Shown one piece after another: positions 6,123-60,762 of a stretch of DNA of 64,000 nt. Under the pieces are notes generated by a model. It was not told the DNA's origin and searched no databases. It worked only from the letters and a program-made list of their open reading frames with translations. The translations under genes were made by a program, and so were the position numbers. Source of the DNA: Jiangella alba (GTDB lineage: Bacteria > Actinomycetota > Actinomycetes > Jiangellales > Jiangellaceae); assembly GCF_900106035.1 (NCBI RefSeq), contig NZ_FNUC01000004.1:496001-560000 (forward strand), in the 5' to 3' direction. The stretch's first letter is position 1, and every line of letters begins with the position of its first letter.

Positions 6123-7175
6123 ATGCCCGCCAGTGCGGCTGCTCAACGAGGGCTCGACGGCAAGGCAGCGTTCATCGAGGCTGCCAACGCCCTCGGCCTG
6201 CGCACTGCTGAGCCCACGGACGAGTCCGCCGATGTGCGGGTGGACGTCAACGGTCGCTGGCTGGCGGTCGACCTGAAGCGATTCTCGACCGTGGGCAGCG
6301 ACGACGTTCCTCGATTGGTGTCCCGGCATCGAGACCCGCCGGATGGTGAGGCGCCGCAGCTTCGAGTACTCGTAGCGGACCGGGTCCTCGGCGAGGCTCG
6401 AGACGTACTGAAGGCCCATGGCTGGGGCTGGCTCGACCTGAGAGGCCATCTCTTCCTGTCGGCGCCGGGTGTGCTGGTCGACGCCGAAGTCCCAGCATTT
6501 CGCCCGCGTCCTGACCGGATGTCTCCGTTCTCCGGAAGCGTCGGCCTGGAAGTCGCCTGTGCGCTGCTCCTGGAGCCCGACGTTGCTCCGACCGTGAGAG
6601 GTCTGGCTCGAACGTTGTCACGAGCGCCGAGCACCGTGTCCGACGTGCTCAAAGGACTGCGCTCCGAGGCCTTGCTGCTACGAGCTGGGACCCCGGCGAC
6701 GCCGGAGTTGTTCTGGGCGACCGCAGAGGCGTGGCCGAGCCGGGCGGTGCCGCTCGCCGCGTCGCCGGCAGCAGTCGATTCCAGGTATGCGGCCGCTCTG
6801 CGGATTGGATTGGACGACTTCGACAGCGAAGCTGGTTGGGCGCTGACTGACACCCTGGCGGCTGCCGCTTACGGCGCACCCGTAGGTGCCCGTAGCGACC
6901 ACCCTCCGGACTTCCACGTTCCCGACGAACAGACGTTGCGCCGAGCTGTCCAAGTCCTCGGACAGGCTGAAACGTTCGACAGTCGCCGAGCGTCCGTACG
7001 GGTCGCCCCGGTGCCGGCGGTGTGCACGAACCGCGTCGATCTCCGAAGCTCGAACCAACCTTGGCCTCTGACCCGCCCGTTGTTCGTCGCTCTGGACCTC
7101 GCCGCCGACCGCGACCGCGGACGGCAGGTCCTCGAAGCGTGGCAGCCAAGGAGCCCATGGCACCGTGTCTGGTAA
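6123..7175 (+). CDS. AbiEi-like type IV antitoxin / HTH regulator
   Basis: This 350-residue protein is the first gene of a two-gene overlapping unit. The N-terminal half contains DVRVDVNGRWLAVDLKRF, which resembles a PDDEXK-like D...D-x-K strand pair. It is followed by a GWGWLDLRGHLFLSAPG segment and then a winged HTH (about residues 150-200: TVRGLARTLSRAPSTVSDVL). The layout resembles the COG4861/AbiEi antitoxin group, which represses its own operon. ATG 6123 was chosen over 6033 because the longer form would begin inside the CsoR-type palindrome and read through the inverted repeat. No strong ribosome binding site is visible, so a leaderless mRNA is possible. The stop overlaps the toxin gene start by 11 bp. 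Confidence 0.65.
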   Translation: MPASAAAQRGLDGKAAFIEAANALGLRTAEPTDESADVRVDVNGRWLAVDLKRFSTVGSDDVPRLVSRHRDPPDGEAPQLRVLVADRVLGEARDVLKAHGWGWLDLRGHLFLSAPGVLVDAEVPAFRPRPDRMSPFSGSVGLEVACALLLEPDVAPTVRGLARTLSRAPSTVSDVLKGLRSEALLLRAGTPATPELFWATAEAWPSRAVPLAASPAAVDSRYAAALRIGLDDFDSEAGWALTDTLAAAAYGAPVGARSDHPPDFHVPDEQTLRRAVQVLGQAETFDSRRASVRVAPVPAVCTNRVDLRSSNQPWPLTRPLFVALDLAADRDRGRQVLEAWQPRSPWHRVW

Positions 7176-9749: not shown

Positions 9750-10215
9750 GCCGGGCAGCTCGAGGCCGTGACCACTCTCCGGCGTCGTCCTCGTAACTGC
9801 CGCCTCTAGGCCGAAGCGAAGCGTGTCCAGGGTCGACGCAGTCGATCGCGGAGCGACACGGAGCGCAGCGCAGTGCCCTTGACTCGCGCAGTGCAGGCCG
9901 GATCATGGCGGCGTGAGGGGGACGCCCCTGACAGGCAGACCCGGTTCACGGTTGGCCGGCGACGGTGGAACGACTCCGCTGTCGCCGGCCTTCTGCATGC
10001 CGAGCGGCCGCCGGCCGGGCCGCGGGAGGGACCGGCCGCCAGGCCGCATGCCCGACCCGGCCCGCAGCCGAGCGGGCCGCGCGGCGAGCGCAGCGAGCCG
10101 CCTTGACGGAGTAAAGAAAGTTCTCACCACGCCCTGTCCCGGCCGGGTGTCCTGTCACGGGTGATGCTCGACAGTCGCGTATCAGTTGATGCTTGACACC
10201 CGACCGAGAGCGCCG
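9750..10215. other. non-coding stretch after the BrnT/A-like pair
   Basis: I see no supportable gene here. A perfect hairpin GGCCGGCGAC (9954-9963) / GTCGCCGGCC (9981-9990) could terminate the toxin-antitoxin transcript. A 12-bp imperfect direct repeat TGATGCTYGACA occurs at about 10162 and 10187. The rest is GC-rich spacer, probably decayed island DNA. Confidence 0.5.
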
Positions 10216-10468
10216 CTAGTTCAGGTCACAGCTGGTCGCTTCGAAGCCGCCGTCCACGGCCCAGATCAGGTCGATGGATGCGGAACGTACGAGCTTCTCA
10301 AGATCTGCTCGCACCCGCGATGGGAGCAGGATCGCCTTGCGAGCCGTCGGCACGAACCGGACGTAGTCGGCGAGCTGGCCGATCGCCCGCGGTCTCGTCG
10401 TAGAGGTCGGTGAACGGCTCGATGACGGCGTACCCCGCGCCGTACGACGCACCACCACCTAGGGTGGA
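10216..10468 (-). pseudogene. truncated, frameshifted remnant of a nuclease-like protein
   Basis: On the minus strand one frame encodes GAGYAVIEPFTDLYDETA and the next frame carries on with AIGQLADYVRFVPTARKAI down to a stop at 10216. Joining them needs a single base near 10390. Together they look like the C-terminal 75-80 residues of a real protein. The 'AIGQL..Y' helix and following strand are common in PDDEXK-type proteins. The upstream part is missing, cut off by the start of the ATPase gene at 10506. It is a relic of an earlier island cargo gene. Confidence 0.5.
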
Positions 10469-10505
10469 TCTTGTGCTGTCCGGGTAGGGGCCCTATTGTC
10501 GCCAC

Positions 10506-12701
10506 ATGTCTCGATTGACCAGCCTCGGATCATTCGCATCGAATCGCCCTATGGGCGCATCTCTGGAACTTGTGGAGGATGGTTCGGATGCGTCCTTCAC
10601 GCTGAAGGCGGTGCCGCCCGTGGGCTATGTCTGGCCAGACATCCGACTGGACAAGCAAGACGCTCAATCGCCGATCATTCTAGTGACGGCACCGGGCGCG
10701 ATGGGAAAATCTGCGGCGGCGCAGGCAATCGCTGCGCGTACGAACGCTCCGTTTGTTGACCTTGCGAGGTTGGCGATCGGCAGCAATAGCCTTACTGGCT
10801 TGCTCACGACAGTCCTTGGCTGGGGTCAGGCGTCATCGCTAGTTGCGGGCCTCCACAGTGGTAAAATGTCACTCGTACTAGACAGCCTGGATGAAGCGCA
10901 CCTCGCAGCCGGGAGTACGCATTTCTCCGCTTTCATGCGCAACATCGCTGATCTCGCCAGGGGCGCTGAGCCGAGAAATCAGTTTCTTATATTTGGTCGC
11001 CGCGACACCTTGGAAACCGCATACCTCGCGCTTGCCGACCAGGGAATAGAACCAGACCAAGCCACGATCGCGAGCCTTACCTATCAGCAGAGTTGCGATC
11101 TGATCAATCTCGTACTTGATCAGACGATTGTCGACGGCCATGAGTATACGAACCACAGGACCCACGCACAGCCGTTCGCAACTCATCGGGACGGGACGCT
11201 TCAAGATATGGCTGCGGCGCTTGGGAGCGACAAGTCGACAGCGGCTCAGGCATGGCCGGAGGTTGGGTCGTTTCTCGGATATCCGCCTGTTCTCCTTGTG
11301 CTCTCCAAACACCTTGCGGTTGACAACTTCGCGGCAACGCTCGCGAGCCGAGTTAAAGACGGTGCCCTCGCGGAGCGATCAGTAAAAGGGACCCTCCTCC
11401 GGGAGGTGGTGGAAGGGATTCTCGATCGCGAGAGCGCGAAGGTCCGGAGCCAATTGCCTGATGCCCTCGGATATTCAAGTCTGGATCCAGAAATTGGCCT
11501 TCTGTATTCGCGGGACGAACAGGTGCGCCGGATCGCGAACTATGTATTCGATACTCCACTCAAGATTGATCTCCCCAACTCGCTGCCCGAGTCGACGCGC
11601 ATTATCTACGAGGACCAGATTAGCTCCTTCCTGCCGGATCACCCGTTCCTGGATGGGCGGAACATAGGAAACGTGGTATTCAGGGACTATATCTATGCGT
11701 TTATGGCAACCTCGCCCCATTATGGCCTCCACGGCGAAGCGCGCCACCTGGTCGCCAGTATGCAGCCTGGGCCGTTTCTGGTCCACTTCGTTGAGGCGAT
11801 GGCTGCGAGAGAGAACGATCTCGGTTCTGCATTTCTGCGAGAAGAGATGATCGACGCGGTAATTAAGTCGCACAATGCGGGCACGGCAAAGCCTGGCCCG
11901 TTTCTATATTCGCAGTTTGGGGATCGCGCACACCTTGTTCTTTCGGACAATCCGAACCTTGCAGCGAGTGATCTCTCCTCGATCTCCTTCGAGATTGAAG
12001 ACGTGTCAGGGGTAATTGAGCTACGTAGCCCGATCGCTCGTGGTTACGTCTTCTCCACTGATGGCGGGTTGACTATTTCCAGCGGGACTGACGAGATACT
12101 CCTAGGTCCAGAGTTTATGGTGGTCGTGGCAGTACTGGAGATGCGCGCAAAGAACCTCCTTGCGACGTCCCATGACGGCCAGAAAGGAATGACGGAGGGC
12201 CTGGGTGCCGTACTTATTGTTCGAGATTCGATTGACCATGACCCTGAAATGAAGGTCAGGGCTGTTCCGTTGGGTGCGTTGAACGTGTCCTTCCCTGAGA
12301 TATGGCACCAGTTTAGGCAGTATCGGATGGAGAGCGGACTCGCGCCGGTTCCATCGGTGGATGAGAACGTTTCGTGGCAGGTAATGTTCGGGATTAGGCG
12401 AATCCTTAGCGTGTTTCAGTCGAGCGTGAAGGCTGATCCAAGTATCTACCGCGAGCGCATCGACCGAATCACCGTGGGTAGCAACCCTGTGTTTAGGGCC
12501 ACCCTTGATGCGCTTATCGAAATAGCTGTAATTTCAGTAGAAACCAATCTCTACCGACTAAATCTTGCGAAATTGGCGGAATTTGGCGTCAACTACGCAG
12601 CGGTGCGAGGGACAGACTTTGCCTCAAAATTGAAGCAGTTGCACGCCGAAGTTTGCAAAAAAGCACCTGTTCTCGCGCTACTTCGCGGGGACGCCACGTG
12701 A
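10506..12701 (+). CDS. STAND/NACHT-like P-loop ATPase, putative defence protein
   Basis: This 731-residue soluble protein has a complete P-loop core near its N-terminus: Walker A APGAMGKS (62-69), NACHT-like Walker B LVLDSLDE (123-130) and a sensor strand FLIFGRRD (160-167). After a winged-helix-like region come about 400 residues with no recognised domain, probably helical then beta-rich. There is no signal peptide or membrane span. Single-NTPase-core proteins of this size in genomic islands are often STAND-type phage sensors or switch proteins. Its partner is probably the gene at 13307. Codon use is much richer in A/T than the flanking chromosome (TTA, ATA and AAT are common), indicating recent transfer. 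The specific function is unknown. Confidence 0.75.
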   Translation: MSRLTSLGSFASNRPMGASLELVEDGSDASFTLKAVPPVGYVWPDIRLDKQDAQSPIILVTAPGAMGKSAAAQAIAARTNAPFVDLARLAIGSNSLTGLLTTVLGWGQASSLVAGLHSGKMSLVLDSLDEAHLAAGSTHFSAFMRNIADLARGAEPRNQFLIFGRRDTLETAYLALADQGIEPDQATIASLTYQQSCDLINLVLDQTIVDGHEYTNHRTHAQPFATHRDGTLQDMAAALGSDKSTAAQAWPEVGSFLGYPPVLLVLSKHLAVDNFAATLASRVKDGALAERSVKGTLLREVVEGILDRESAKVRSQLPDALGYSSLDPEIGLLYSRDEQVRRIANYVFDTPLKIDLPNSLPESTRIIYEDQISSFLPDHPFLDGRNIGNVVFRDYIYAFMATSPHYGLHGEARHLVASMQPGPFLVHFVEAMAARENDLGSAFLREEMIDAVIKSHNAGTAKPGPFLYSQFGDRAHLVLSDNPNLAASDLSSISFEIEDVSGVIELRSPIARGYVFSTDGGLTISSGTDEILLGPEFMVVVAVLEMRAKNLLATSHDGQKGMTEGLGAVLIVRDSIDHDPEMKVRAVPLGALNVSFPEIWHQFRQYRMESGLAPVPSVDENVSWQVMFGIRRILSVFQSSVKADPSIYRERIDRITVGSNPVFRATLDALIEIAVISVETNLYRLNLAKLAEFGVNYAAVRGTDFASKLKQLHAEVCKKAPVLALLRGDAT

Positions 12702-13306
12702 CCGAGGTACCAAACACGGCATGGATCCCTATGGCAGATCCGTCTCGTCGCACTCGCGCACGAACGGACCACCACGCCGAACCTCAGAACGCCGGGCCAA
12801 GCCTCACTGCCTACCACCCCGGAGCCGCCGCCGACGTTGTTTGAGCACGGCCGTCTAGCCATGCGCAGAACGCTGCGGGGGTTCTCGGTAGGCCGTATCT
12901 TGTGCTCGCGCACGTACGCATCGAAGGCCTGGGCGATGGCCTGCGCCCCATCCGGCGACAGCCGGACCCTCGACCTGCGATGACGAGCCATAGAGCCGCA
13001 GTACCCACGCCGCGAAGCCTCACACGCCAGCCAAACCCACTCGACACTTGCGAGACTGCGCCGCCGGCCGATCGCACGGCGGCCTGCGAGAATGCGATGG
13101 CTTGCCGTGGGTCACCGAGCGCCAACGATTGGTTGACCAGTGGAGCCAGCACATAGGCCGTGGGCCTCCAGACGCTAACGAAGACCACCGGGAGGTGCGG
13201 AGCTCCGCAACCATCGCATCGCACGCAGACGATCGAGACGTAGTGTCCGCCCCAGATGCAACGATGTCGAGTCTGAACGCTTGGGATCGGTGGGGGAGCG
13301 ACTTCA
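12702..13306. other. 605-bp spacer between ATPase and nuclease-like genes
   Basis: No confident gene. A minus-strand reading frame with ATG near 12991 starts MARHRRSRVRLSPDGAQAIA and runs plausibly for about 50 residues before becoming low-complexity, and it would overlap the ATPase 3' end. It may be a gene remnant. The sequence is GC-richer than both neighbours, suggesting a different origin. A ribosome binding site, GGGGGAG, lies at the right end for the gene at 13307. Confidence 0.4.
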
Positions 13307-15136
13307 ATGCCGCGCGACGAGGCCGAACGACTTCGGCGACTCTTTGGGGCTCATGAGCCGGAGGAACTGCGCACGTACCTTGCGGTTGCTGACGGCCGCA
13401 AGTACATTGCGGGCTCGACGGTGCGCGCGCTTGGCCAGTTTAAGCGCCTTCTGAGCGGCCTATATGTCCCCGAGAAGGTCGCGACGAGTACGGCGCCAAT
13501 GGACCTTGTTGCCGTATACGTAACGCTCCGAGAGCTGTCTAATGGCCGAGTGAATGCCGAACAAACCACCGCCGCAATATCGCGTTTCTCAAAGAGCGCA
13601 CTGATTCGCACGTGCGCACTCTTCATGGCTAACTATCGTGCCGATCCAAAGCATTTGGACAACTGGAACTCATTGCTCCTAGAGTCGCTCAACGATGGCC
13701 CTCGCGAACGCGCCATGAACTTGCTGCGGCAGGGTCGCGTCCTCTTAACACCCCAGGGGGCGCTTGTGCTGGCAAAACTGGCTTTGGCGTATGCCCAGCC
13801 CGAGCCTCAACGTATGGATCCTCTCGCGGCCAACTGGTTTGGCGTGCTGGTTATCGGCATACACGACCTCCTGGAAAGCACGAGCGCAGCTAGAGCCGAC
13901 GGCGACTCCGACACGGAAAGGGCTTCGCTCTCGCAGTGCTTGGAGCTATCAGCGAACACATGGTTTAATAGAATGCTAGACGATGTTACTAACATTCTTG
14001 CGCTATATGAACGGCGTTGGGCTAATCCCCGCCGTAGAAGTGCTTTTCGAGCGGCCGAGGCTTTCGAGCGGACTCAGGGCTTTCCCATCGAGGCTCAGGC
14101 TAGGGTGGCCATAGCTCTATGGGCAAGCGCTTACGCAAGCAAGCGGCCCACAGTGCAGCGGGCATATCTATCAAGTCTTGGGATTGACGAGCAAACGATG
14201 ACACGGATCCTCGACCTAATATCGGTCTCGATAGTTGACGCCGAGGCTTCAGTGAATGTGGAGATTGCGCCATCCTCATTCGCATGGAACTTTGACACAT
14301 TCGAACGATATCCCGTGCTTCGTGATACAGATGACTCGCTAATAGTCATGGACCCAGCACTCTTGCTACGTCGGTGCCTCGGTTGGGCGCCGGTCTATGA
14401 CCTGGCAGAGGCGGGCACCGCTACCAGGCATGGTCTTGCCCGCGTTACTGAGGATTACGCGCTGGAAATTCTCCAGGAAATGTATCCGCATGAAGGGGTT
14501 AACAAGCGCCTCTATGTCGAGGCTGAGTTGCGCAGCGCCTTTCCAGAAGGGCAGATTGCCGACGCTGCGGTTGACTTCGGCACTTCGTGGGTGGTTTTTG
14601 AGTTGACGTCTCGCATACCGCTGCGCGGCGTCGTGCACGGTGAGAATACCGACGACCTCGAACAGCAGATCGATATCGTGCTTGAAGAGCTTGAGCAGAT
14701 TTCGTCCACCATAGTGAATATCTCTGACGGAGCACATCGCCTGGTCGAGCACGCGGCTGGGCCTACACGAGAACGGCTTCGCTTCTATCCCGTGGTGGTA
14801 TTTACGGAAGGCTTTCCCACCAACCCAGTCTTGCTGGCTGAGATTCGCGACCGAGTTCGGACGAGGCGGCTATTTGACGGCCACGACGTCGCTCCAGTTG
14901 AAGTTATTGACATTACCGAACTTGAGCTACTGGAGTCCGTAGTTGAGCATGGCGGACCAACGATACCCGAGCTGCTAGAGGACAAAGCCGCGTCGAGCTT
15001 CTGGTCAGACTCTTTGAACAACTATCTTATATCCGGCTCACGACTAAGGCTCGTTCGCGCTTCTCGCATTGATTCACTCTTTAATGCCCCACTTGATCGG
15101 ATTATTGCGCTGCTTGAGCAGAGAGAAGCGAGATAG
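13307..15136 (+). CDS. large protein with PDDEXK-like core, putative defence effector
   Basis: This 609-residue protein starts at ATG 13307 behind GGGGGAG. Residues 1-380 are mainly helical with no recognised domain (ERTQGFPIEAQARVAIALWA, LRRCLGWAPVYDL). Residues about 385-480 resemble a restriction-endonuclease-like fold: helix YALEILQEMYPHE, then D419 (ADAAVDFG), then E432-L-T434 (WVVFELTS), followed by a helical EELEQI segment. The last catalytic position is Thr instead of the usual Lys, so activity is uncertain. The AT-rich codon use matches the ATPase at 10506, which suggests that the two arrived together. A sensor-ATPase plus nuclease-type defence pair is the working inference. No named system is recognised. 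Confidence 0.6.
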   Translation: MPRDEAERLRRLFGAHEPEELRTYLAVADGRKYIAGSTVRALGQFKRLLSGLYVPEKVATSTAPMDLVAVYVTLRELSNGRVNAEQTTAAISRFSKSALIRTCALFMANYRADPKHLDNWNSLLLESLNDGPRERAMNLLRQGRVLLTPQGALVLAKLALAYAQPEPQRMDPLAANWFGVLVIGIHDLLESTSAARADGDSDTERASLSQCLELSANTWFNRMLDDVTNILALYERRWANPRRRSAFRAAEAFERTQGFPIEAQARVAIALWASAYASKRPTVQRAYLSSLGIDEQTMTRILDLISVSIVDAEASVNVEIAPSSFAWNFDTFERYPVLRDTDDSLIVMDPALLLRRCLGWAPVYDLAEAGTATRHGLARVTEDYALEILQEMYPHEGVNKRLYVEAELRSAFPEGQIADAAVDFGTSWVVFELTSRIPLRGVVHGENTDDLEQQIDIVLEELEQISSTIVNISDGAHRLVEHAAGPTRERLRFYPVVVFTEGFPTNPVLLAEIRDRVRTRRLFDGHDVAPVEVIDITELELLESVVEHGGPTIPELLEDKAASSFWSDSLNNYLISGSRLRLVRASRIDSLFNAPLDRIIALLEQREAR

Positions 15137-15156
15137 TCGACGTCGTTAGGAACCGT

Positions 15157-15816
15157 TTATATGTGCTGCAAGGCGGGCACAAGGTCGCTCATCGCGTAAA
15201 TGACGGTGGAAGCGCCTGCTTTTTTGAGGCGCGCGTCCTTGCCGACTTTGTTCGCGTATCCGATGGCGGGTACACCGGCGTTTCGGCCCGCCTCAATGTC
15301 AGTCACCGAGTCACCCACGAGGACGCACTCAGCTGGCACCACGTCGAGGGCTGACGCGGCTTCAACAAGATAGAACGGGTCGGGCTTCATCAACCTCGGA
15401 TCCGGCGTACGTCGTGCGGCGATGTGATCGATGAACTCCATCAAGCCGTGCCGATCCGCGTACGCCTCGACAGCCGCCGCGGAGTTGTTGCTGACCACCG
15501 CGACCTGGCGCCCACTTCGACGCGCGGCCAGCATGACATCGACGGCTCCAGGTGTCGGGTCGGCCGAGGCGGCGGATTCCACTTCTGAGGCCACTAGGTC
15601 GTCGGAGATCTGCTTCGTGATCACGAGACCTAGGGCTTTGCTGTGATGGTAGATCGACAGTGGGTCGTTGTCGTCTGCGAGCTCTGGCCCGATCTCCACG
15701 CCCAGTTGACGGAGTGATCGTCGAAGCCGATCGGCAACAGCCCTCGCCGGGAGGCCGGCGAAGACGCTACAGATGGGGCCGTCGAAGTCGAGCATCAGGA
15801 GCTTGACTCCGGACAT
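15157..15816 (-). CDS. HAD-superfamily phosphatase
   Basis: This 219-residue protein starts MSGVKLLMLDFDGPICSVF, with the nucleophile and acid/base aspartates of HAD motif I (DFDGP). Motif II is VVSNNS, motif III is the Lys in LMKPDPF and motif IV is VGDSVTDIEAG. The length and cap position match phosphoglycolate-phosphatase-like HAD proteins. It is convergent with the nuclease-like gene (20 bp between stops) and divergent from the integrase. HAD proteins of this group occur widely in actinomycete accessory DNA; the substrate is unknown. Confidence 0.8.
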   Translation of the reverse strand: MSGVKLLMLDFDGPICSVFAGLPARAVADRLRRSLRQLGVEIGPELADDNDPLSIYHHSKALGLVITKQISDDLVASEVESAASADPTPGAVDVMLAARRSGRQVAVVSNNSAAAVEAYADRHGLMEFIDHIAARRTPDPRLMKPDPFYLVEAASALDVVPAECVLVGDSVTDIEAGRNAGVPAIGYANKVGKDARLKKAGASTVIYAMSDLVPALQHI

Positions 15817-15924
15817 TAGCTGGGCGAGCTGTTCGCTCGTGCCGGCCGCTCGTGTGGGTCGTGGGTTGCGGTACGTGCGCGCTGATGTCGAGGCGTGGTT
15901 TGCGGCGCAGATCGAGGCTGCGTG

Positions 15925-17116
15925 ATGGGCCGCGCACCGCTGCCGATCGGCACGTGGGGCAAGATCCGCACCTACGTCGACAAGGTCGACGACAAGGGGA
16001 AGCCGATCCGGCACCGTGCCATCGCTCAGTTCCGCGACTTCGACGGTCACACGAGGCCGGTCGAGGCCCACGCCAAGACTCCGACGGCGGCCGCCAACGC
16101 CCTGCGGCAGAGGCTCAGCGAACGGTCCAAGGCCGGCCGCACAGGCGAACTCACAGCATTGCACCGCTTCGCCGAAGCGATCGACCTCTACGTCGCGAAG
16201 TTCAAGGAACGCGTCGAGGCTGGCAAGCGGTCCGCAGGCACGTTGGAGCTCTACGAACGGCACATCAAGAACCACGTGCGGCCGGCGCTCGGGGAGGTCC
16301 GTCTTGGCGAGATCTCGACGCCGCTGCTGGACAGGGTCATCGGGAAGATCAAGAAGAAGTCCGGCGCGGCGACTGCGAAGACCTGCCGGAGCATCATCTC
16401 CGGGATCATGAAGCTGGTCGTCCGCTACGGCGTCATGTCGGTCAACCCCACGCGCGAGGTCGACAGCATCGAGTCCGAGCCGAAGAAGTCGCCTCGTGCG
16501 CTCACGGACGCCGAGCTGACGATGTGGCTCGACCAGCTCCGCACTGAGCCCATCGCCATACGGTGGGACTTGCCCGACCTCACCACGTTCATGCTCCGCT
16601 ACCGGCTGCCGCATCGGCGAAGCGCTGGCCGTGACGTGGGAGCAGATCAACCTTGAAGCCGGAACCGTCGAGCTGACGCACACCGTGATCCGGCTGACCG
16701 GCATCGGTCTGATCCGGAAGAAGACCAAGACCAGTGCCGGTGAGCGCCTGCTACAGCTCCCGCTGTTCGGCATCGTCATGCTTCGTCGCCGGTTCGCCGA
16801 GGGCGTCCGACTCGATCAGCCGGTCTTCGCGAGCACAGTAGGTGGACTGCGCGATCCGTCGAACGTTCGGAAGGTGCTCCGTCAGGTGCGTGGCGACGGA
16901 GCCTTGGCGTGGATCACGTCGCACGCGTTCCGTAAGACGACGGCGACCGTTCTCGACGATGCGGGCCAGTCCGCGCGTCAGGTGGCGGATCAGCTCGGGC
17001 ACTCGCGACCGTCGATGACGCAAGATGTCTACATGGCGCGGCGTGTTCTGAACCCGACAGCCGCGGGCCTGCTCGATGACGCTCTACAGACGACGGTGGT
17101 GGAAAACCATGGGTAA
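15925..17116 (+). pseudogene. tyrosine recombinase (integrase) with a 1-bp frameshift
   Basis: From ATG 15925 the first frame gives an N-terminal Arm-type domain (GTWGKIRTYVDK...), the SAM-like core-binding domain (about residues 75-170) and the start of the catalytic domain up to DLTTFML. It then goes out of frame at 16597. One extra C in the CTCC run at 16594-16597 separates it from the second frame, which continues ATGCRIGEALAVTW (catalytic Arg), SHAFRKT (H-x-x-R), LGHSRPSM and VYMARR (nucleophile Tyr) to 17116. Without the extra base the protein would be about 396 residues, normal for the family. The gene ends 54 bp from the tRNA-Lys 3' end, its likely target. Confidence 0.85.
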
Positions 17117-17169: not shown

Positions 17170-17208
17170 GTGGGCCCCCAGGGGATCGAACCCTGAACCC
17201 GCGGATTA
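17170..17208. repeat. attR: 39-bp direct repeat within tRNA-Lys
   Basis: Identical to 7946-7984. It covers the 3' half of the intact tRNA-Lys gene, so integration regenerated a functional tRNA on this side. Confidence 0.9.
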
Positions 17209-17243
17209 AAAGTCCGCTGCTCTGCCAATTGAGCTAGAGGCCC
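17171..17243 (-). tRNA. tRNA-Lys (anticodon TTT)
   Basis: A 73-nt cloverleaf is visible. The acceptor GGGCCTC pairs with GGGGCCC including one G-T pair. The D stem is GCTC/GAGC, the anticodon stem GCGGA/TCCGC with loop CTTTTAA, the T stem CAGGG/CCCTG with loop TTCGATC, and the discriminator A. CCA is not encoded. It is the integration site of the island to its left. Confidence 0.95.
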
Positions 17244-56001: not shown

Positions 56002-56713
56002 CGGAAGAGGGATGGTTCGGGCGCCGGGCCGGGAACGCCTCTCGGCGCAACGGCCGCTCGTAGCGGCTATAAGTGGGACCCGGGGTTACCACGGCCCGCC
56101 GCCCAGCGAGAGCCCCGAAAGGCTGTCGCCAGTACCTGAAACTACCCGATGTCTGTGGTTGTTCCCAGCGTTGTCGCGTGGGAAGGATCACCTTGACGAC
56201 GAGCGGCTGGGCGGTTCCTCCCGCTTGCGGGGCCTCTTCGTCGACCCGCGCACCCTGTGCTGAGCGTCGCCCTCGCCCGCGCGTTTCCTCACCACGCCGT
56301 GCTCGGCGCTTGACGGGCACACGCCGGAAGCCCAGCCGGGTCGAGCGCGAGTGGCGCAGGGTCATGGAACCCGCCCACCCGGCGAGCACCTCCGAGACAG
56401 CAGCGACCTCCCGTCTCGCCGGATCACACGGCTGGTATGGCGTAATTCGGTCCACCACGCTGCGTGTCATTCCGCCCAGATTGACGCAGGGCTCCGTCCG
56501 AACGGGACACCGTGAGCGCCGGGTGATTGCCCGCCCCAGTCGCGCGGGAGTTGACAGTGCTCACGCTGGGCATCGCACTATCCGCAATCGACGCTCGCTC
56601 ATCGCAGGACGAGGTTTGTCGGGCGGGTCGCCTCGCGCCGCAATCTCGTGCCTTGGACTGCGGTTGACCAGCCGTATCGGGCGGGGCAGGCTGCCGTCAG
56701 CCCTGGCTCGCGT
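56002..56713. other. 712-bp region without a confident gene
   Basis: No reading frame here has convincing protein features on either strand. Short hairpin-forming stretches occur (for example CTCCCGCTTGCGGGG near 56218-56232). A possible promoter TTGACA...CACTAT sits near 56550-56582. It marks the junction between the housekeeping genes and the accessory locus to the right, and may be decayed mobile DNA. Confidence 0.5.
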
Positions 56714-57337
56714 TCACGATGAGTCCATGAGCGAGTACTCGGTCAGTCGGACGAGGTACGGCGCGACCAAATCGGCCATGAACGAGACCGTGTAGGTCGA
56801 TGGTGTCAGGCCAGGCGCGAACGCGGTCCGACGTACGACCGACGTGACCTGCGAAGCGCCGACCTTGGAGCCTGACCGCAGGTTCAGGACGTGGGTGGAT
56901 GCGAAGGATTGGCTTGGATGGACGTTGACGCTGAGCGGCTCCTGGCTGCGACAAACCAGAGCATAGTGGTGGCCCCTAGTAGGACTGATCCGGCTCGTGA
57001 CATACGAGTGCTCCGGGAGTTCGAATGGCTCTCCGTCGAGCGCGATGCCGCGATGCCACACGGCGATCTGCGCGGGCGCAACATCCCGGGCAGCGGGTCG
57101 TGATCGCATCGGCGTGAAGACGACCTGGGGATCAGGAGCTTGCGCGAGGAGGGCTTCGACCGACGGACCGATGGCGTTGCCGATTCCCCATAGGAACGTG
57201 CCGCCGCTTGCCAGACGCTCGGCTTCCTTGCGAGCAAGGATCGTGGCGCTGTCTTCACCGGCCTCGGTGCCGTACTTCGTCCAGCAGAAAAGATCCGGCA
57301 ACTCTGTCGTAGTGTCCGTCTCGACATCGTGGAGCAT
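56714..57337 (-). CDS. unrecognised family protein, paralogue A of the ImmA/PIN locus
   Basis: This is a 207-residue protein; ATG 57337 is preferred over 57409. I do not recognise the family. It is clearly related to the protein at 59085-59633. Shared blocks are ARKEAERLASGGTFLWGIGN / GRKRAEIEAEGMAFWGYGGN, PQVVFTPMRS / PIVLAMQPMTS, YALVCRSQEPL / YALLVDSLDEV and a C-terminal ADLVAPYLVRL / ANLVAPHAVFL. The alternating strands suggest a compact alpha/beta or PUA/EVE-like fold, which is inference. It is divergent from the ImmA/IrrE-type gene, with only 84 bp between them, so the two may be co-regulated. Confidence 0.7.
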   Translation of the reverse strand: MLHDVETDTTTELPDLFCWTKYGTEAGEDSATILARKEAERLASGGTFLWGIGNAIGPSVEALLAQAPDPQVVFTPMRSRPAARDVAPAQIAVWHRGIALDGEPFELPEHSYVTSRISPTRGHHYALVCRSQEPLSVNVHPSQSFASTHVLNLRSGSKVGASQVTSVVRRTAFAPGLTPSTYTVSFMADLVAPYLVRLTEYSLMDSS

Positions 57338-57421
57338 GACCCAAACAATAGGGACGTAGCCGGTGCCGGAGGGGCACCAGAGCCGGGCGTGTCCGGTCGT
57401 CGTGGGCATCGAGGAGGAGTC

Positions 57422-58426
57422 GTGGCGCTTTCTCCAGGAGCTCTACGCGTCGAACTGCGTCGCGCCGGTATAGCTAACGCCGCTGTCGACGCCGTTTGGC
57501 CGCAGTGGTGGAGCTCAGAGGCGGAATCGTCCCTGTCGGCCACGGCGGAGCTGACGTTCACCATCGCCCGTCGCCTGGGGCTCTCGCCGCAGGACCTGCT
57601 GGAGGGCGAAGCTCGCTTCGTTTGGCGCGATGAGGCCAAGTTCAAGCTCCTTGCCGCGACGGTATCCGCTGAGGAGCAAGCGCTGTCGTCCTTCGGCTGC
57701 GCTGTCGCTCGGGCAGCCGTCGCGGGTGTACCTGCGACTGGCTCGGCGGCGAGTTACAACGCCGGCGAAATTCGCGATGCGATCCTTCGCGAGGCTCCGT
57801 TCGTTCACGCCGAGGCGTTGCTCGCGTTCGCCTGGGGCGTCGGAATCCCAGTGCTGCAACTGCGCATCTTTCCGTTGGCTCAGAAACGGATGCACGCGAT
57901 GACCGCGGCAGTCGGTGGTCGCTCAGCCGTGCTCCTGGCGCGCGACTCGTCCTACCTCGCACCGATGACGTTCACCCTGGCGCACGAGATCGGTCACGTG
58001 ATGCTCGGCCACCTGACCGGCGCAACCGCGGTTGTGGATGTCGAGGATCCGTTCGTCTCGCCTGAGTCGGACGACGCCGAGGAAGCCGCAGCTGATCGAT
58101 TCGCGCTGGAGCTGCTAACTGGCGAACCGAGACCTACCGTGTTGACCAATATAGAGAGCTTTTCAGCGACCCAACTCGCAAGCGCAGTTTCGGAACAGGG
58201 TCCACGTCTCGGCATAGAGCCCGGGTTCCTTGCCATGTGCGTCGGACATAGCACCAAGCAGTGGGAAAAGGTGTATGGCTCGCTGAAGATCATCGCCCCC
58301 GGCTATCAGGACGTGCCGGGGTGGCTGAACTCGATCGCAGAGCGGCAACTGGACTGGTTAGCGATGACGGAGGACAGTCAAGACTACCTCCGTGTAGTGA
58401 TGGGATTGCCGCGCGACGATGTGTGA
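57422..58426 (+). CDS. ImmA/IrrE-type metallopeptidase
   Basis: This is a 334-residue protein. GTG 57422 is chosen because GAGGAGGAG lies just upstream. Residues 1-60 may be a degenerate HTH (ELTFTIARRLGLSPQDLLEG). Residues about 185-260 carry the zinc motif TLAHEIGHVMLGHL (H-E-x-x-H) with downstream EEAAADRFALELL, as in ImmA/IrrE proteases that cleave phage or stress repressors. It overlaps the PIN-like gene by 8 bp. Protease-antitoxin/PIN-toxin pairs of this arrangement are known among toxin-antitoxin systems. Confidence 0.82.
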   Translation: MALSPGALRVELRRAGIANAAVDAVWPQWWSSEAESSLSATAELTFTIARRLGLSPQDLLEGEARFVWRDEAKFKLLAATVSAEEQALSSFGCAVARAAVAGVPATGSAASYNAGEIRDAILREAPFVHAEALLAFAWGVGIPVLQLRIFPLAQKRMHAMTAAVGGRSAVLLARDSSYLAPMTFTLAHEIGHVMLGHLTGATAVVDVEDPFVSPESDDAEEAAADRFALELLTGEPRPTVLTNIESFSATQLASAVSEQGPRLGIEPGFLAMCVGHSTKQWEKVYGSLKIIAPGYQDVPGWLNSIAERQLDWLAMTEDSQDYLRVVMGLPRDDV

Positions 58427-59096
58427 ACTCCTTCTCGACGTCGACGTCGTCATCAAGTTGGCCGCCTACGACCTGCTTGACGTGATCGCACACCCGGGCT
58501 GCGGGTCCGACTGCGGCGGGCGTCGTGGGGTGATCGCCACAACCCGTTTCGTGGCATACAAGCGCTTGAGACGAAAGTCTCCTGATCCTCAAGCGACCCA
58601 AGCACGACTCGCGATCTTTCTTGATGACGCCATCGAGCTTGAGCCGACCGAAGATGAGCTCCGGCAGGCCGCCGTCATCGAGGCGCAGGCGGTCACAGCC
58701 GGGCTCGAACTCGACTCTGGCGAGAGCCAGCTCTGTGCTATCTCGATTGCGCGCACCATTCCCATCCTGCTTACCGGCGACAAGCGAGCTATAGCAGCAG
58801 CCGAGGCGCTCCTCGAGACGGTCGCCGATTTGACAGCCCTGACCGAGCGCATCGCCTGCCTTGAACAGGCGATGACGCTGGCGGTGGAGCGGCTCGGCGC
58901 GCTGTCTGTGCGGGCACGGGTGCTCGCCGAGTTGAACATGGACACGGCGATCAACATCTGCTTCCAAGTCACCAATCCGGATGTCGACGCGACCTTTGAG
59001 CCGACTGGCCTCTCGAGCTATATCAACAGCGTTCGCGCCAGCGCTCCGACGCTGCTGATCCCGGGCGATAGATTGGAGCTCGCATCAGTTGCGTAG
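58419..59096 (+). CDS. PIN-like ribonuclease domain protein
   Basis: This is a 225-residue protein from ATG 58419. It starts MCELLLDVDVVIKLAAYDLL with the first PIN Asp, then has DSGESQLCAISIA (acidic pair in the helix) and PILLTGDKRAIAAAE (the 'TxDK' strand). This is the order of catalytic acids in PIN nucleases. A C-terminal 80-residue extension is helical, then beta. It overlaps the ImmA/IrrE gene, so the two are translated together. It is probably the RNA-cleaving toxin of the locus; the 3' end overlaps the convergent gene by 12 bp. Confidence 0.75.
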   Translation: MCELLLDVDVVIKLAAYDLLDVIAHPGCGSDCGGRRGVIATTRFVAYKRLRRKSPDPQATQARLAIFLDDAIELEPTEDELRQAAVIEAQAVTAGLELDSGESQLCAISIARTIPILLTGDKRAIAAAEALLETVADLTALTERIACLEQAMTLAVERLGALSVRARVLAELNMDTAINICFQVTNPDVDATFEPTGLSSYINSVRASAPTLLIPGDRLELASVA

Positions 59097-59633
59097 AAAC
59101 ACAGCGTGCGGCGCGACAAGATTTGCTCTTAGCTTGATTTCAACTATCTTAGGCTGGCCCGTAGACTCATCGGTTACCTCCAAGCATGCCTTATCAACCC
59201 GGCCCTGAATGTAGTTCGCGCCGGACTTCCCGAGGCTCGGACCTACAGCAACGCGTGTCCGTGACAAGTCTAAAACATCATCAACCTCATCGAGTGAATC
59301 AACTAGGAGGGCGTACCGCGACCCGACGCAGTTGATACCTTCAGGGATCTGCCTCCACTTAATGCCGTCTTCCGAGTACTCCTCAGCGCGCACGGGCTCG
59401 GCGAAGTGTTTGGAAGTCATCGGCTGCATTGCCAGCACGATCGGCCCGGTGCTCCCCAAGGCGAAGGGCCGAACCATGGAGGCCGGGTGACAAGTGTTGC
59501 CGCCGTAACCCCAGAACGCCATGCCCTCGGCCTCGATCTCGGCCCGCTTTCGGCCGATAATGTCGGCCAGTTCCTCGCTGGCGTGGGTGCCAACCTTCAT
59601 GTACAGGATGTTGTCGCCGGGCTGGATGGCCAT
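59085..59633 (-). CDS. unrecognised family protein, paralogue B of the ImmA/PIN locus
   Basis: This is a 182-residue protein. ATG 59633 is chosen because it follows GAGGTGTGAG and directly follows the stop of the upstream gene; ATG 59651 is an alternative. It shares with paralogue A the blocks R-K-x-A-E, FWGYGGN, QPMTS, RYALLVDSL and NLVAPHAVFL. The order and spacing of the blocks are the same, so this is homology over the whole length. It is coupled to the BpsA-like gene on the same strand. Function unknown. Confidence 0.72.
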   Translation of the reverse strand: MAIQPGDNILYMKVGTHASEELADIIGRKRAEIEAEGMAFWGYGGNTCHPASMVRPFALGSTGPIVLAMQPMTSKHFAEPVRAEEYSEDGIKWRQIPEGINCVGSRYALLVDSLDEVDDVLDLSRTRVAVGPSLGKSGANYIQGRVDKACLEVTDESTGQPKIVEIKLRANLVAPHAVFLRN

Positions 59634-59634
59634 C

Positions 59635-60468
59635 TCACACCTCGTCGTCAATCAGTTCAAACTCGTACTCGTTGGTGTTGGCCCTGCCGTAGTCGACGCG
59701 CTGACGCTCGCGGACGAAGCGTACATACGGGCTGGCTGACCTCCCGTAGAAGTTGTCCAACTGATCTCCGCCACGGATCGCCTCGCTGTGTATCGCGCGC
59801 TTGTTTTCGGAAAGGGAAGCGATCATCAAGTTGCAGGACTTCAGATTCGGGGCATCGTCGAGGTGGTATGCGTGCAGCCGAGGCATCATGCGGCTTACAT
59901 AGAATTGCTGCTCGACCGCGAAGCGCTGAATGCGATGCAGGACTTGCTTGGGCCACAGCAGTTCAAGGTCGTCGGCGATCACTATCATGCCCTCGCCACT
60001 GTAGTGCATCGCTTCCATGCCACGCCGCGTGAAGACCTTAACGCTCTCGCCCGCGTTACTCGCGCCCCACGGCGGGTTAGTGTAGAAGCGGTCGTAGGGC
60101 TCGGCATGCGGAAAGGCATCGAGACAGTTGTAGAGCACAGCATCGAGATTGTCGAGACGCTCTCTGTCAGCGAAGCGCGTCACCGCCTTGACGATGCGCT
60201 CGTCGAAGTCGAACACGGTGATGTGCGCCGGCCCCGTGTCGATGATCCCCTTGGCCGACAAGTAGGCCGTGCACACGCTGATAGCGTCGCCGTCTCCAAT
60301 GAAGGCGAGTCGCTTACCGTCGGCCCAGCGCGAGACGAGTTCACTCTGCATAACCATGTCGCCGGTCTTCATGTAGATCTGGTCGAACTCACGCAAGGGC
60401 CGAGGGCGGTTCTGCACCACGTCGGAGACCGCATTGATAGCCGCCTTCAGGTCGATCTCAACCGCCAC
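59635..60468 (-). CDS. BpsA-like (branched polyamine synthase/MTase-fold) enzyme with NPPW motif
   Basis: This is a 277-residue protein with a Rossmann methyltransferase-type domain: RLAFIGDGDAISVCTAYL (nucleotide-binding loop), TVFDFDERIVKAVTRF and the active-site FYTNPPWGASNAGESVKVF. The pattern matches the N4-bis(aminopropyl)spermidine synthase family, and the (N/D)PP(Y/W) motif is also used by N6-adenine and exocyclic-amine methyltransferases. In this setting a polyamine role is not obvious. Modification of a nucleic acid or nucleotide by a transferred group is an alternative. Its TGA is followed one base later by the next start codon. Confidence 0.75.
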   Translation of the reverse strand: MAVEIDLKAAINAVSDVVQNRPRPLREFDQIYMKTGDMVMQSELVSRWADGKRLAFIGDGDAISVCTAYLSAKGIIDTGPAHITVFDFDERIVKAVTRFADRERLDNLDAVLYNCLDAFPHAEPYDRFYTNPPWGASNAGESVKVFTRRGMEAMHYSGEGMIVIADDLELLWPKQVLHRIQRFAVEQQFYVSRMMPRLHAYHLDDAPNLKSCNLMIASLSENKRAIHSEAIRGGDQLDNFYGRSASPYVRFVRERQRVDYGRANTNEYEFELIDDEV

Positions 60469-60762
60469 ACGATCACCACCCTCCGGGAGCCCGCCGCCTG
60501 GAGACGAGCCATGCCTTGGACGATAGTGCGGACCCCGGACAAATCCACCGATCGATGTGAGCCCCTACATGTGCCGGTCTGGCCACGTCCTGAGTCATTC
60601 CGCCGCGTCTGCCGCATCTCCAATGCGCACAAGCCATGTCGCTGTGACCCGCTCGGGGAGATCTCTCCTCTGCCATGTGCGGGCCCGGTGCGCATGCCGC
60701 GCCGTGCCGTGGGCTGGGGACGTATGTAGTCCCGATCGATGGATCGGGACACCTCCCACCGG
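60469..60762. other. 294-bp spacer at the right end of the accessory locus
   Basis: I see no gene. It must hold the promoter of the BpsA-like gene. A short stretch GATCGATGGATCG (60732-60744) is partly palindromic. Confidence 0.4.

Follow-up and report, generated by a model that had tools for sequence, protein, structure and literature searches.

A recurrent five-gene module with predicted modified-base readers, a BpsA-like enzyme and a protease–PIN-like pair in Jiangella alba

Introduction

The (PIN)-GNAT-EVE operons almost always encode a second PUA-like protein, of the ASCH type, and often an AAA_17 ATPase; the passages of PMC7641849 that deal with EVE/ASCH systems present all their parts as uncharacterised at that time. 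Another association, joining COG2856 metallopeptidases with Xre and PIN proteins, is known as a predicted toxin–antitoxin combination from the relevant section of PMC2701414. In BpsA, the motif Gly157-Asp158-Asp159-Asp160 is indispensable, with Asp159 and Asp160 positioning the aminopropyl group (part of PMC12979288), and in YTHDC1 the cage pair W377/W428 is 51 residues apart (part of PMC6112328). These systems bear on a locus of the actinobacterium Jiangella alba, in which five packed genes encode two proteins of unnamed families (A and B), an ImmA/IrrE-like metallopeptidase, a PIN-like putative nuclease and a BpsA-like enzyme. The locus lies in a 64,000-nucleotide stretch of contig NZ_FNUC01000004.1 (positions 496,001 to 560,000), hereafter the window, to which all unlabelled coordinates refer. 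The five genes are a real, recurrent unit, proposed here to be a variant of the modification-based conflict systems. No account of this unit was found in open-licence PubMed Central (PMC) papers, and the module is apparently undescribed so far.

A unit of constant gene order

Scanning 84,980 species genomes with an alignment of B, by way of two seed peptides from B, yields 79 loci; this route overlooks strongly diverged copies and any that have no B. Scored with one profile per family, the loci contain the BpsA-like enzyme and B in 79 of 79 cases, the PIN-like and ImmA-like proteins in 75 each, and A in 72; the ImmA-like and PIN-like genes occur together in 73. All five genes are present in 71 of the 79 loci, and their order is identical in 71 of these 71: the BpsA-like and B genes face the PIN-like and ImmA-like pair, with A beyond the ImmA-like gene, either divergent (41 loci) or co-directional (30). 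The five proteins are also co-inherited. Across 68 complete loci, their distance matrices correlate with r between 0.54 and 0.91; shuffling, repeated 500 times for each pair, gives no value above 0.31. Six near duplicates were excluded from this test. Near duplicates among the 79 loci, with B at least 95% identical, are L012/L013/L014, L030/L032/L033/L035, L049/L054, L050/L053 and L070/L072. A first-pass annotation, made from the letters of the window, had named repeated linkage of A and B with ImmA/IrrE, PIN and BpsA-like genes as something to look for; such a linkage exists, and homologues of A and B are neither scattered without conserved neighbours nor members of a known housekeeping family.

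The dense packing described in that annotation is borne out by the open reading frames (ORFs). Protein A (56714–57337, minus strand, 207 amino acids) is divergent from the ImmA-like gene (57422–58426, plus strand, 334 amino acids), which, as recomputed, overlaps the PIN-like gene (58419–59096, plus strand, 225 amino acids) by 8 bp. The latter converges with the gene for B (59085–59633, minus strand, 182 amino acids) over a recomputed 12 bp, and a single base separates the start of B from the end of the BpsA-like gene (59635–60468, minus strand, 277 amino acids). For A, a longer frame starts at an alternative ATG at 57409 (231 amino acids). The start at 57337 is likelier because of the lengths of the homologues: an identical database entry (P0121) has 207 amino acids, and coverage of the 231-amino acid query never exceeds 90% among the matches listed (120 of 267).

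Six of the eight incomplete loci reach a contig end (L035, L047, L048, L068, L080 and L081). Locus L069 (1397–4463), on a 5.3-kb contig of a Bacteroidales metagenome-assembled genome (MAG), carries A, an ImmA-like gene, B and a short BpsA fragment, and has no PIN-like gene; the best match of the fragment is 81% identical to the window protein, oddly close for the Bacteroidales label. In the Planctomycetota locus L079 (464–2967), a different M78 metallopeptidase (83.6 bits) and a 146-amino acid protein are followed by BpsA-like and B genes, with neither A nor a PIN-like gene in the following 8 kb. This is possibly a version with another effector.

Patchy distribution, mobility and surroundings

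The module is rare, patchy and apparently horizontally mobile. Its hosts comprise actinobacteria, alpha-, beta-, gamma-, zeta- and deltaproteobacteria, acidobacteria and cyanobacteria, and single MAG contigs with the module are labelled Chloroflexi, Bacteroidales and Planctomycetota. B is found in none of 98 other relatives, none of 395 other genomes of the phylum and none of 288 others sampled from one alphaproteobacterial class, with 8 or 11 candidates scored per genome in the two larger scans; these three results reject a common chromosomal gene set. Flank identity with the closest genome (G405) is 92–98%, and there 2.5 kb of different sequence takes the place of window positions 56207–60761. 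The similarity stops at 56206 and resumes at 60762 in this genome, and stops at 56485 in G404, so that DNA comparison within the genus delimits a strain-specific block at approximately 56486–60761. The five-gene stretch lies in a dip in guanine-plus-cytosine (GC) content, with 60–68% per 2 kb against about 71–72% on both sides.

B occurs in 5 of 72,556 plasmid records, and plasmid-borne modules have ABC-three-component and AbiEi/AbiEii genes among their neighbours. B and the ImmA-like and PIN-like proteins have no match in 50,697 phage records. Two IMG/VR contigs hold near-copies of the rhodobacterial loci L012–L014, and a phage origin is rejected.

Near flanks of the loci, other than the window's own, give PADLOC matches (E ≤ 1e-20, among the matches listed) to DndC, type III and methyl-directed restriction enzymes, an Argonaute-associated restriction endonuclease, PD-Lambda-5_A, AbiEi and candidate systems. 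Under the same terms, far flanks give GajA, a type III methyltransferase, PD-Lambda-5_B, SoFic, a 2TM effector and MzaA. Random stretches of the host genomes give, among the matches listed, methyltransferase, DruM/DrmM and mad3 names. The scans cover 124 of the 255 near and 124 of the 210 far ORFs and, for the random stretches, 122 of the 204 ORFs that lie on 19 pieces of host genome, with L128 left out as it overlaps the L063 locus; the PADLOC families listed are 25 of 51 (near), 67 (far) and 48 (host), and several may correspond to one protein. These surroundings fit a defence-island setting, and no enrichment factor is claimed.

A structured RNA search of the flank finds two tRNAs and nothing else. 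The intergenic stretch 56008–56217, which adjoins the module, has no Rfam match and is >92% identical in some genomes of the genus, in two of which its spacing to the adjacent gene has changed. A second GC dip (59–60%), at 10001–16000, ends near the tRNA-Lys gene at 17170–17243 and is possibly another acquired block.

Proteins A and B

A and B are full-length paralogues outside known sequence families, as judged from profile comparison. Aligned profile to profile with hhalign, they match over nearly their whole length (probability 97.1, E 4.7e-11, 166 columns), with 46% identity across 39 amino acids, whereas five comparisons of A or B with PIN-like, ImmA-like or BpsA-like profiles give probabilities of at most 2.9. 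Neither protein matches a Pfam family at E ≤ 1, and no worthwhile match exists in Pfam, NCBIfam, PHROG or PADLOC; NCBIfam scans of the module proteins return weak matches below cut-off. The paralogy first noticed from shared sequence blocks, and the lack of a known family, are both upheld. A database of 5.8 billion proteins provides 2492 candidates for B, of which 2379 are homologues at E ≤ 0.01, and 776 for A, of which 267 are.

Structural models, built from separate alignments, reach a pLDDT (predicted local distance difference test) of 92.5 for A and 93.2 for B. The fold search ranks YTH domains first for both, with weak resemblance, and the VIA-align lists of the two models are filled with YTH domains at weak structural scores; that of A also includes the N-terminal domain of McrB (6n0s) and THYN1 (5j3e). 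Beyond the matched range, each model ends in a pair of strands (past about residue 155 in B and past 171 in A). Two tryptophans are invariant in 96 of 96 A/B proteins, W41/W93 in B and W50/W94 in A. In B they stand 52 residues apart and in A 44, a spacing that may liken them to the cage pair of YTHDC1 with its 51. Collectively, A and B are predicted to be YTH/EVE-like readers of modified bases.

The structure and profile searches suggested at the outset rank YTH first, weakly, by structure, and give no match of A or B to YTH, EVE or ASCH profiles. These three are absent from the ten weak Pfam families found at E ≤ 1 over the 96 A/B members. A sequence link to EVE is rejected, as comparison with nine EVE proteins by hhalign gives probabilities of at most 0.2. 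Matches of the A and B profiles to antibodies and other PDB sequences, all with E > 0.6, were discarded.

The BpsA-like enzyme

The BpsA-like protein has a BpsA_C domain (65.1 bits for a Pfam cut-off of 27), and the solved relatives are the BpsA structures, 5xnc and 6j27. In RefSeq, the plasmid copies go by the name bis-aminopropyl spermidine synthase family. The indispensable GDDD is replaced by GDGD (residues 58–61 in the window protein), with glycine at the position of Asp159 in 98% of 82 sequences, and the DPP of BpsA is replaced by NPPWG (residues 131–135), found in 97% of the 82 and invariant in 18 aligned sequences; the motif FDFDER spans residues 86–91. The catalytic motif of S-adenosylmethionine (SAM, AdoMet)-dependent amino-methyltransferases is (D/N/S)PP(Y/F/W), to which NPPWG conforms. 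AdoMet decarboxylase of family PF02675, the one decarboxylase family searched, is absent from J. alba and is found in none of 19 of the 35 hosts searched (J. alba among the 19, several genomes being draft or MAG); 16 of the 35 have it.

Aminopropyl transfer is unlikely because of the change from GDDD to GDGD and the lack of PF02675 in the 19 hosts, and the enzyme is probably not an aminopropyltransferase; that part of the initial label does not stand. Given the NPPWG and GDGD motifs and the supply of decarboxylated SAM, a SAM-dependent amino-methyltransferase is the better fit, and for this branch a name like ‘bis-aminopropyl spermidine synthase family’ probably misleads. The PADLOC family mad2 matches the protein with 34.7 bits around the methyltransferase motif; it is not counted as membership of MADS because the match spans residues 32–167 only. 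None of the five window proteins has a Pfam match to the GNAT family.

The metallopeptidase and the PIN-like protein

The ImmA-like protein scores 21.2 bits with Peptidase_M78, just below the 22-bit cut-off. Its HExxH motif (residues 188–192) is invariant in 26 aligned sequences and is accompanied by conserved D218 and E221. Among PDB entries it matches CapP 7t5t (E 0.016) and 9vzy (E 0.031), and in PADLOC it has weak matches, to capP (32 bits) and others; at these scores, kinship with CapP/CapH is weak and was set aside. Its PHROG match is family 18577 (E 4.7e-43) and that of the PIN-like protein is family 15597 (E 8.8e-12), both without an assigned function.

In the PIN-like protein, D7, D9, E102 and D121 are invariant and D99 is conserved in at least 90% of 33 aligned sequences, in the contexts D99-x-G-E102 and G120-D121-K-R. 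It has no Pfam family at E ≤ 1 and no PDB sequence match. The label PIN comes from these acidic residues, and the protein is considered a putative nuclease.

Additional genes and variants

An AAA_17 P-loop kinase of about 195 amino acids occurs near the module in 30 of the 79 loci, mostly directly upstream of the BpsA-like gene, and Pfam AAA_17 is confirmed in the four kinases scanned. By eye, it presumably resembles archaeal-type adenylate kinases. The window copy has neither this kinase, which therefore lay outside the view of the first-pass annotation, nor an Xre gene; in L009, a gene for an Xre helix-turn-helix (HTH) protein lies between the ImmA-like gene and A, upstream of the former. 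The four plasmid loci fetched all contain the kinase and the five families, rearranged in one. In this Pseudomonas plasmid the order is BpsA-like, B, kinase, A on the opposite strand, a gene annotated as DNA-binding, ImmA-like and PIN-like; A reads there as two minus-strand ORFs (L085, 10163–10934, Pseudomonas koreensis).

Some loci have second copies of module genes nearby: a BpsA-like and B pair (L043, 4942–6416), a BpsA-like gene (L048, 5697–6512) and an ImmA-like gene (L023, 14005–15135). In L010, which has no kinase, a MazG-like gene (6754–7086) lies directly upstream of the BpsA-like gene. Six alphaproteobacterial loci encode a MraZ-like protein of about 180–205 amino acids beside A (e.g. 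L025, 11175–11711; L007, 11044–11655).

Possible mode of action

The preferred reading is that of a horizontally moving writer–reader–effector module with a protease-regulated toxin pair, probably acting in defence or addiction, whose activities are predicted; we stop just short of calling it probable. The BpsA-superfamily enzyme, as a SAM-dependent amino-methyltransferase, would place a methyl mark on nucleic acid, RNA being likelier than DNA. B, made beside the enzyme, and its diverged paralogue A would bind the marked base, taking it up in an aromatic pocket of the YTH/EVE-like kind. The toxin pair would consist of the PIN-like nuclease and the ImmA-type metallopeptidase, and occupied readers would hold it off as long as the nucleic acid of the host is marked. 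Infection or loss of the element would deplete or swamp the mark, the protease would act, and the PIN-like nuclease would cut RNA and stop growth. What the sequences show is the gene content and its order, recurrence, co-inheritance and patchiness, the homology of A with B, and conserved residues of catalytic type. We infer methylation, reading and PIN activity, and most of all which way the signal runs and what the protease cleaves. Loss of the mark is preferred as trigger, given that B is coupled to the writer in all 79 loci. The main idea of the first-pass annotation is partly supported. That the BpsA-like enzyme and A/B make or read a chemical mark agrees with the NPPWG motif and the weak YTH/EVE likeness of the models; release of PIN activity by ImmA on loss of the mark, the nuclease activity itself and defence against phage stay at the level of prediction.

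A more specific form is doubtful. Here, the mark would be self-made and of the N6-methyladenosine (m6A) type, written by the BpsA-derived methyltransferase and read by two prokaryotic YTH-like paralogues, with a protease-gated PIN nuclease that fires on its loss. If true, the module would be a compact prokaryotic writer–reader–executioner circuit, with YTH-like readers outside McrB-type restriction.

The signal could also have the opposite sign, which we consider unlikely. The readers would then detect modified nucleic acid, foreign or self-marked, and recruit the PIN-like nuclease, as an RNA-directed form of type IV-like restriction; the mark made by the methyltransferase would be the one targeted or else one that masks. 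Such a scheme agrees with the defence genes in the flanks and with the usual role of EVE and YTH-like domains as targeting modules in McrB and CoCoNuT systems, as set out in parts of PMC7641849 and PMC11090510. It is hard to reconcile, as a detector of foreign marks alone, with a writer coupled to B in every locus, and restriction needs no dedicated protease.

Quite unlikely is a plain three-component ImmA–Xre–PIN toxin–antitoxin system, in which the BpsA-like enzyme, A and B would serve as antitoxin or for regulation and have no part in writing or reading a base. The predicted COG2856–Xre–PIN association, the Xre gene upstream of the ImmA-like gene in L009 and the joint presence of the ImmA-like and PIN-like genes in 73 of the 79 loci favour it. 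However, the 71 complete loci always have the other three genes, and the ImmA-like and PIN-like proteins of the window are unmatched in the phage collection although PHROG families match both. A bare ImmA–PIN pair is not seen among the 79 loci, which is no fair test because they were collected through B. Finally, a polyamine system, whose BpsA-like enzyme would make a branched or aminopropylated product sensed by A and B, is suggested by the best characterised relatives and by the RefSeq name of the plasmid copies, but is highly improbable given Gly for Asp159, NPPWG for DPP and the 19 of 35 hosts, some in draft form, in which PF02675 is not found.

The module places two unnamed protein families in a setting that makes their function testable. 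Should the predicted reader role of A and B prove right, it would offer, alongside the EVE/ASCH systems, a small bacterial model of methyl-mark readers gaining control of RNA-cutting toxins.

Comparison with known systems

The module appears to parallel the predicted (PIN)-GNAT-EVE systems without being a member. In terms of gene content, both combine, in the module by prediction, a PIN-type effector, an enzyme of a nucleotide-modifying class and two predicted base readers, often with AAA_17 (30 of 79 loci, not the window copy) and in some cases an Xre HTH protein. Both are mobile, lie near defence genes and have a predicted toxin–antitoxin role, following the account in parts of PMC7641849 (Bell, Wolf and Koonin 2020). 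The (PIN)-GNAT-EVE systems have a GNAT enzyme, in place of which the module has a methyltransferase-like enzyme of the BpsA superfamily. In the module, moreover, the PIN-like protein is encoded by a separate gene, an ImmA-type protease belongs to the core, and the predicted readers A and B are mutual paralogues that match neither EVE nor ASCH profiles.

The COG2856(ImmA)–Xre–PIN association of Makarova 2009 (relevant section of PMC2701414) shares a metallopeptidase gene and a PIN-like gene overlapping in one operon; the module differs from it by three further genes, always present in the 71 complete loci. With BpsA, the N4-bis(aminopropyl)spermidine synthase, the module enzyme shares the superfamily and the BpsA_C domain (part of PMC12979288). 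It differs by GDGD for GDDD, NPPWG for DPP and a length of 277 amino acids against 371–375 in the solved chains, and its hosts often have no AdoMet decarboxylase of family PF02675. A and B may resemble YTH/EVE readers and the YTH-like domains of McrB/CoCoNuT systems in the predicted order of the fold and in two invariant tryptophans (parts of PMC11090510 and PMC6112328), and differ from them by the lack of a sequence-profile match, weak structural scores and the extra C-terminal strand pair.

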